Below are positions 1 to 41,013 of a stretch of DNA of 64,000 nucleotides, piece by piece. A program made the position numbers and the translations under genes. The notes beneath the pieces are model-generated. The model saw only the letters and a list, made by a program, of their open reading frames with translations. It was not told the DNA's origin and did no database searches. Every line of letters begins with the position of its first letter. Positions within the stretch are counted from its first letter, which is position 1. The stretch is from Opitutaceae bacterium (GTDB taxonomy: Bacteria > Verrucomicrobiota > Verrucomicrobiia > Opitutales > Opitutaceae): the NCBI GenBank assembly GCA_016794785.1, contig JAEUHC010000019.1, positions 868,001 through 932,000 on the forward strand, read 5' to 3'.

Positions 1-1
1 G

Positions 2-18
2 GCGGGTCATAGACCCGC
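2..18. repeat. Small palindromic repeat unit (half element)
   Basis: Perfect 7-bp arms GCGGGTC / GACCCGC around a 3-nt loop, 21 bases from the stop codon of the GTPase gene. The core (GCGGGTC-nnn-GACCCGC) is the same as in the paired repeat inside menC at 40237-40305, so this is probably one unit of the same dispersed REP-like family, cut by the window edge. It could also act as a transcription terminator for the GTPase gene, but no T-run follows. Confidence 0.55.
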
Positions 19-39
19 GCACGCATACGGTGCCACCGC

Positions 40-34889: not shown

Positions 34890-34950
34890 GTAGGTCGGGC
34901 TTTGCGCCCGACATCATCCGCAAGCGTGTCGCGCGTAAAGCCCGGCCTAC
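34890..34950. repeat. REP-like palindromic repeat pair between ogt and cdd
   Basis: Outer arms at 34890-34903 and 34937-34950 are inverted repeats matching 13 of 14 bases, bounded by GTAGG and CCTAC. Within the left half a smaller hairpin (GTCGGGC / GCCCGAC) is present. The overall build (GTAGG outer edges, GC-rich inner hairpins) mirrors the perfect repeat in menC at 40237-40305, with a different core. The right edge forms the TAG stop codon of the methyltransferase gene. Confidence 0.75.
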
Positions 34951-39945: not shown

Positions 39946-41013
39946 GTGAAGCTCCGCCTCCAGTTCCGACGGTATCGCGCGTCCTTTCGCACGGCGGTGC
40001 GCACGGCGCACGGCATGTGGGCGGAGCGCGAGGGTCTGCTCGTGCGGCTGGAAAACGAGGCCGGTGCGGTGGGCTACGGCGAAGCGGCACCGATTCCGTG
40101 GTTCGGCACGGAGACTGTGGAGGAGGCCGAGGCAGGCGCACGCGTGCTAGGGGAGTGGACGACGGCGGAGCAAATCGCGGCGGTGCCGGCGCGGCTGGGG
40201 TGCTTGAAAAATGCTCTCGCGGCGGCTGTGTCTGAAGTAGGGCGGGTCTGTGACCCGCCCTCGGATGCGGCCAGCGCGAAAGGGCGGGTCACAGACCCGC
40301 CCTACTTGGGCGTCGCCGCGCTGCTGCCGGCGGGGCGCGCGGCCTTGGCGCAAATCGAGCCGCGGGCGGAGCTGGGGTTTCGGGTTTTCAAATGGAAGGT
40401 CGGCGTGGGCGATGCGGCCGATGAACTGGGGTTGCTCGACGATGTCTGCGCGGCGTTGCCGTCCGGCGCGAAGCTGCGGCTCGACGCCAATGGCGCGTGG
40501 GACCGGCGCACGGCGGAGCGGTGGCTGGAGCGCTGCGCGGAGCGGCCGGTGGAGTTTGTCGAGCAGCCTAGCTTCGCCGATGCGGCCCAAAGCGACGCGG
40601 CGCGACGCAAGGCCGACGATTGCCTGCTGGGGCTGGCCGGGGATTTCCCGACGCCGATTGCGCTCGATGAATCGGTCGTGGGCGCAGGTGACATCGCGCG
40701 CTGGATCGGGGCGGGATGGCCTGGCGTCTTTGTGATCAAGCCGTCGCTCATCGCCGAAGTGGGCGCGGCGATCGCGGCGCTCGAAAAGGCGAAGGCTCGG
40801 GTGGTTTTTTCCTCGGCGCTTGAGACGGCGGTGGGTGCGCGGACGGCGCTGCGCGTGGCGTTTGCTTGGAAAGGCGAGCCACGTGCGCTGGGCTTCGGCG
40901 TGTGGCCGCTGTTTGCGGATGCGCGCTTCGACGGGCCGATGGCGATGCCGTTTCTGCGCGCGGAGGATGTGGCGCGACTCAACCCGGAGGCCGTGTGGAC
41001 CGCGCTGAGCTGA
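39946..41013 (+). CDS. menC: o-Succinylbenzoate synthase with in-frame repeat insertion
   Basis: 355 aa from a GTG start ([14 protein letters not shown]). Enolase superfamily, menaquinone synthesis: the catalytic elements KWK (FKWKVGVGD), metal ligands [16 protein letters not shown] and ALDESV, and VIKPSL are all present, so the barrel is intact. Residues 98-120 ([13 protein letters not shown] and on to TDPPY) come entirely from a 69-bp palindromic repeat inserted without shifting the frame. It sits between the N-terminal capping domain and the barrel. It overlaps menE by 19 bp. Confidence 0.88.
40237..40305. repeat. 69-bp perfect palindromic repeat inside menC
   Basis: Two 24-bp arms (40237-40260 and 40282-40305) are exact reverse complements separated by 21 bp. 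Each arm is itself a hairpin (GGCGGGTC, 3-nt loop, GACCCGCC), and the edges are GTAGG / CCTAC. 69 bp is exactly 23 codons, and the element starts at codon 98, so the reading frame is preserved. The same core occurs at 2-18, and a relative lies at 34890-34950. Confidence 0.92.

Follow-up and report, generated by a model that had tools for sequence, protein, structure and literature searches.

How does a palindrome come to be translated in the middle of an enzyme, and why in that place? We analysed 64,000 nucleotides of an Opitutaceae genome (contig JAEUHC010000019.1, positions 868,001 to 932,000 of the forward strand; hereafter the window), in which menC contains a 69-bp inverted repeat that is read as protein. 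An earlier note, made from the sequence alone, had interpreted the repeat as a mobile element of the REP/BIME type that entered the gene in frame and was tolerated. Features are collected in the table below.

A translated REP dimer in menC

The identification of menC as an o-succinylbenzoate synthase (OSBS) gene is well supported. Its product, translated from a GTG start codon, scored above the cut-offs of NCBIfam NF002739 and TIGR01927, matched Pfam MR_MLE_C and MenC_N, and had 2ozt and 3h7v, both OSBS, as its top Foldseek matches. The sequence and frame of the repeat were as the earlier note claimed, with 69 bp adding 23 codons from codon 98. It consists of GTAG with a 9-bp stem-loop, a 21-bp spacer and an inverted copy ending in CTAC, and it runs without a stop from codon GTA (residue 98) to codon TAC (residue 120): GTA GGG CGG GTC TGT GAC CCG CCC in the left arm, TCG GAT GCG GCC AGC GCG AAA between the arms, and GGG CGG GTC ACA GAC CCG CCC TAC in the right arm. 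The 24-base arms are perfect, and complementarity reaches 27 bp (40235-40261 with 40281-40307, 100% paired, 19 nt between). The predicted folding energy was −37.6 kcal/mol as single-stranded DNA (z = −10.4 against shuffles) and −62.5 kcal/mol as RNA (z = −10.3). When the forward phases of the left REP were read from the sequence, only the phase used by menC was free of stops, the other two containing TAG and TGA.

Table. Features of the window and REP families in the menC linker of Opitutae
Feature	Position or carriers	Strand	Basis
menC, o-succinylbenzoate synthase, 355 aa including the 23-residue insert	39946..41013	+	NCBIfam, Pfam, Foldseek
REPIN, head-to-head dimer of GTAG REPs, 69 bp, menC codons 98-120	40237..40305	+	sequence, pairing, copy number, fold
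Left REP, GTAG + GGCGGGTC stem region, GTAGGGCGGGTCTGTGACCCGCCC	40237..40260	+	sequence, genome search
REPIN spacer, the part differing between species	40261..40281	+	sequence, comparison with G054
Right REP, inverted; its last four bases, CTAC, supply codon TAC (Tyr120) of the P-Y-L-x-V motif	40282..40305	-	sequence, MenC alignment
Single family-I REP outside menC, truncated at the window edge; the complete copy begins at genome C1:867997	1..20	+	
REP I in menC linker	window genome, G054, also L068, L069		
REP II (GTAG-GGCGCGTTATCCCTAACGCGCC) in menC linker, intact or decayed	L063, L072, L075, L077, L084, L088, L101, L102, L103		
REP III (GTGG-AGCCCGATGTCCTCATCGGGCT) in menC linker	L076		
REP IV (GTAG-GCCACCTCGCTGAGGTGGC) in menC linker	L120; variant in L143		
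REP V (GTAGGGCGAAGCCTCCGGCTGAGCC) in menC linker	L142; half-decayed in L057		

The menC element is a head-to-head GTAG-REP dimer, or REPIN, of the genome's own REP family, here called family I. A search of the 6.12-Mb window genome (G000) with the 24-base arm, as the earlier note had proposed, gave 110 matches at up to 3 mismatches (56 forward, 54 reverse), and the reversed pattern gave 0, which excludes chance. The matches form 66 loci, the majority of them inverted head-to-head pairs, commonly of 69-75 bp, with GTAG outside and related spacers. Members of the GTAG REP superfamily have an unpaired GTAG, a 5-13-bp stem, a 2-20-nt loop and many genomic copies; the menC REP has GTAG, a 9-bp stem, a 3-nt loop and the copy number just given. 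REPINs are recognised as two inverted REPs with a spacer, of a preferred length and as the common unit, which describes most of the 66 loci, and by a REP-flanked RAYT gene. One of the four Y1-transposase matches in the genome, a 198-aa protein encoded on contig 18 (L032:1207-1803), was identified as NF047646, 'REP-associated tyrosine transposase', at 80.6 bits against a cut-off of 80. Copies of the family-I REP flank this gene, about 25 bp ahead of the start codon on one side and about 46 bp past the end on the other, an arrangement that usually marks a cognate pair. Copy number, paired loci and the RAYT thus bear out the reading of a REP/BIME-type mobile element tolerated in frame within menC.

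Other intragenic copies were evaluated by codon usage trained on the window. Some frame was open across the element at 30 loci, and menC was the sole one of the 66 in which the best coding frame was the same on both sides, in frame within a gene. Two further repeats in the window had been linked to the menC element. The copy at 2-18 is of family I, with a single change in the loop, and its full element begins to the left of the window. The inverted pair at 34890-34950 (GTAGGTCGGGCTTTGCGCCCGAC ... CTAC) shares the GTAG...CTAC architecture and has a different stem, with only 4 genome matches at up to 3 mismatches; it was rejected as family I and is a rare second REP-type family, apparently intergenic.

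In the AlphaFold model of MenC (mean pLDDT 90), a helix (85-100) ends at the insert, residues 102-115 have pLDDT <50, and a strand (120-123) resumes after it. The stretch 102-115, which lies between capping domain and barrel, is thus predicted to be disordered. Sequence alignment showed that the best solved relatives, 2ozt and 3h7v, are shorter at this site; together with the predicted disorder, this indicates that the insert lengthens a surface linker from capping domain to barrel. The loop had been described as Cys- and Pro-bearing; its location stands, but the Cys is not a stable feature, being Ser in the sister species G054.

That species, whose MenC is 92% identical, has the insert at the same codon. 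Between the two species, 0 of 42 stem codon bases had changed versus 7 of 27 in the other insert codons (p = 0.0008); five of the nine non-stem codons differed, four of them, including Cys to Ser, with a change of residue. The congener G006 had neither a family-I REP in its genome nor the insert in menC. Conservation of the 23 residues in organisms lacking the repeat family had been named as evidence against an insertion; when we looked for it, the MenC of relatives without the repeat also lacked residues 98-120. Among the 20 family-I loci of G000 that could be aligned to G054, 16 were occupied by a family-I dimer in that species and one by a partial copy, which makes the family look old and slow. 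One more had a different palindromic pair, and two (G000 C1:1000913 and C17:79601) were empty, with the junction sequence lost to divergence. The empty counterpart of C1:1000913 (L237, G054:C106:41479-41651) reads GTGAAAGTTGG, close to GTAG. At C19:111262, where G000 has a family-I REPIN, the same flanks in G054 (L246) enclose the different pair (GTGGGAGGGGCTTTATGCCCC ... GGGGCATAAAGCCCCTCCCAC), so that here, too, two element families occupy a single site.

Different REP families in one MenC linker

To determine how the linker varies among relatives, we aligned 92 MenC sequences and took the segment between 'CLRNAL' and 'VAALLPAG' as the linker. Its length ranged from 23 to 74 residues, with a median of 38 aa in sequences with a REP and 27 aa in those without (p = 2e-7). 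Five distinct REP consensus sequences were found in the linker across Opitutae genomes. For each consensus, at least one of the genomes with that REP in menC had multiple copies: REP I had 110 matches in G000, 152 in G054 and 144 in G043; REP II 46 in G061 and 51 in G063; REP III 162 in G069; REP IV 25 in G067; and REP V 74 in G077. REPs II-V had 0 matches in G000. Families I, II and V all begin with GTAGGGCG, and their final C-TAC falls on the P-Y-L Tyr in nearly all cases; from this sequence likeness they may be related, in which case the five families would amount to three unrelated ones. REPs III and IV sit a few codons upstream of this Tyr.

The REP in menC was not always the commonest family of its genome. 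In G059/G062, which share the same gene, there were 58 matches of family I and 6 of family II, yet menC contained family II. In G065 and G066 (L088, L103), the menC copy was the sole family-II match within 3 mismatches, and it could be a coding fossil or, alternatively, a transferred allele. Within one well supported MenC clade, the linker codon occupied by REP I in L069 is occupied by REP II in L088, L101 and L103; one mobile element may have replaced another there. In the single-contig genome G003 (5,957,605 bp), menC (L054) had no REP.

Y1 transposases were present in 15 of 15 genomes checked. A Y1-type transposase gene lies between inverted REP II copies (G061:C27:40411-40936) and another within a REP III cluster (G069:C32:10811-11923); these are the probable cognate RAYTs of REP II and REP III. 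Other linkers contain repeats of different kinds: the 74-residue linker of L095 has palindromes of another kind (GTGGCACAGGCATCGTGCC and relatives), and that of L093 is built of imperfect tandem repeats around CCGG (AAAACCGGAGGACCGGAAAGCCGGGAGGCCGG) rather than a REP. L095, L124, L093 and L067, with palindromic or repeat-rich linkers, were left out of the REP-bearing count, which was confined to verified families.

On a quick MenC tree built without the linker columns, in which many forks were weak, REP-bearing MenCs did not form one clade (AU p = 4.2e-7). REP presence or family required at least 9 changes of state under the most cautious labelling and 12 under the fullest, losses and gains being counted alike. 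CTAC(C/T)T was present at the P-Y-L codons in 9 of 74 REP-free MenCs.

Proposed repeated entry and its alternatives

We consider it likely that REPINs carried by RAYTs land repeatedly in a tolerant MenC linker and persist when they are in frame. On this view, a REPIN from the genome's GTAG-REP family, a type that RAYTs mobilise in trans, would have entered menC no later than the common ancestor of the window species and G054, and a RAYT presumably performed the insertion. Selection would purge insertions into genes except where the reading frame is preserved, by phase as well as length, at a site that tolerates 20-odd residues. This one may have survived because the linker is disordered, because the sole stop-free forward phase of the left REP is the one in use, and because its length is divisible by three. 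In other Opitutae the same linker would have received REPs of several families repeatedly, the different families presumably representing separate insertions. Tolerance, perhaps helped by a bias towards the CTAC in the P-Y-L codons, would make the linker a hotspot.

A single ancestral insertion is an unlikely origin of the linker REPs. In this scenario the insert was inherited vertically, other REP families of each genome later replaced its sequence through gene conversion, and many lineages lost it. Such a history would account for the shared GTAGGGCG of families I, II and V and their end on the same TAC codon, for the clade of eight alignment rows (support 100) that holds both REP I and REP II, and for the unchanged stem bases between G000 and G054. 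However, REPs III and IV are unrelated in sequence and lie at a different position, spacers differ from genus to genus, and REP-free MenCs are interleaved with REP-bearing ones (L066 by the window and L065, L089 by L084 and L102, L130 by L075 and L077).

It is very unlikely that the insert was selected for, either through an mRNA hairpin that slows the ribosome at the domain boundary or through a role of the peptide. Although the RNA hairpin is very stable, REPs recur at a domain boundary, and the menC copy is the sole family-II match in G065 and G066, the majority of relatives do without the insert, the peptide is not conserved between REP families, and even between G000 and G054 most non-stem insert codons differ. 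An artefact of metagenome assemblies misjoined at repeats has a negligible probability: G054 and most relatives are metagenome-assembled genomes, but the insert separates two in-frame halves of a single menC, independently assembled genomes have the same site with different bases, and family V occurs in menC of Ereboglobus sp. PH5-10, whose record is not labelled a metagenome assembly.

Relation to known REP systems

The REPIN class, also in frame within genes and in this phylum, is already known. The earlier note knew of no description of the element in Verrucomicrobia; the class, including in-frame copies, is on record from Opitutus terrae, which according to the text of the 2013 survey of Di Nocera et al. 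(PMC3733652) had the most intragenic GTAG REPs. The same text describes translated REP dimers encoding 20-30 residues in frame within genes of Opitutus terrae and others, and these resemble the menC element in their GTAG end, short stem and loop, head-to-head dimers, reading frame and phylum. It also reports that recB of two Xanthomonas species contains different REPs at roughly the same place, which is the nearest precedent there for the recurrence in the MenC linker; apart from recB, REPs in genes of one category are described as sitting at different sites. One linker with several REP families across genera is not described in the main text of the survey. Our literature search, which covered the survey's main text and few subscription papers, returned no account of one linker with several REP families across many genera. 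The recurrence of different REP families in one MenC linker, which the earlier note had missed, is the new part.

The Pseudomonas fluorescens elements called REPINs by Bertels and Rainey (2011, PMC3116915) are likewise inverted REP doublets with a spacer, about 70 bp long, forming a hairpin and linked to RAYTs; they were analysed in extragenic space, whereas the menC copy is translated. Rickettsia palindromic elements (RPE; PMC10969869) are an older parallel as palindromic repeats translated in frame in housekeeping genes, but they are about 150 bp long. With GTAG/CTAC ends and 69 bp, the menC element has neither this length nor a CGTC end; the survey text places small rickettsial REPs in a CGTC superfamily without a dedicated transposase (PMC3733652). 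RAYTs are believed to move REPINs in the form of single-stranded hairpins; cleavage by TnpA-REP at CT beside the hairpin was shown in vitro for other species (PMC8266576).

A broader proposal is that different RAYT/REP systems all favour CTAC (GTAG on the opposite strand) at the Pro-Tyr-Leu codons, and that REP insertion and decay are a main source of linker length variation. We regard this as rather unlikely; if true, a conserved protein motif would act as a recurrent, sequence-guided entry site for mobile DNA. Movement of REPs and REPINs has hardly ever been seen directly. One orthologous site taken by different REP families offers a natural series of empty, intact, decayed and replaced states, which could reveal the target, direction and rate of insertion. 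MenC would also illustrate how the linker of a single enzyme can be lengthened by mobile DNA again and again.
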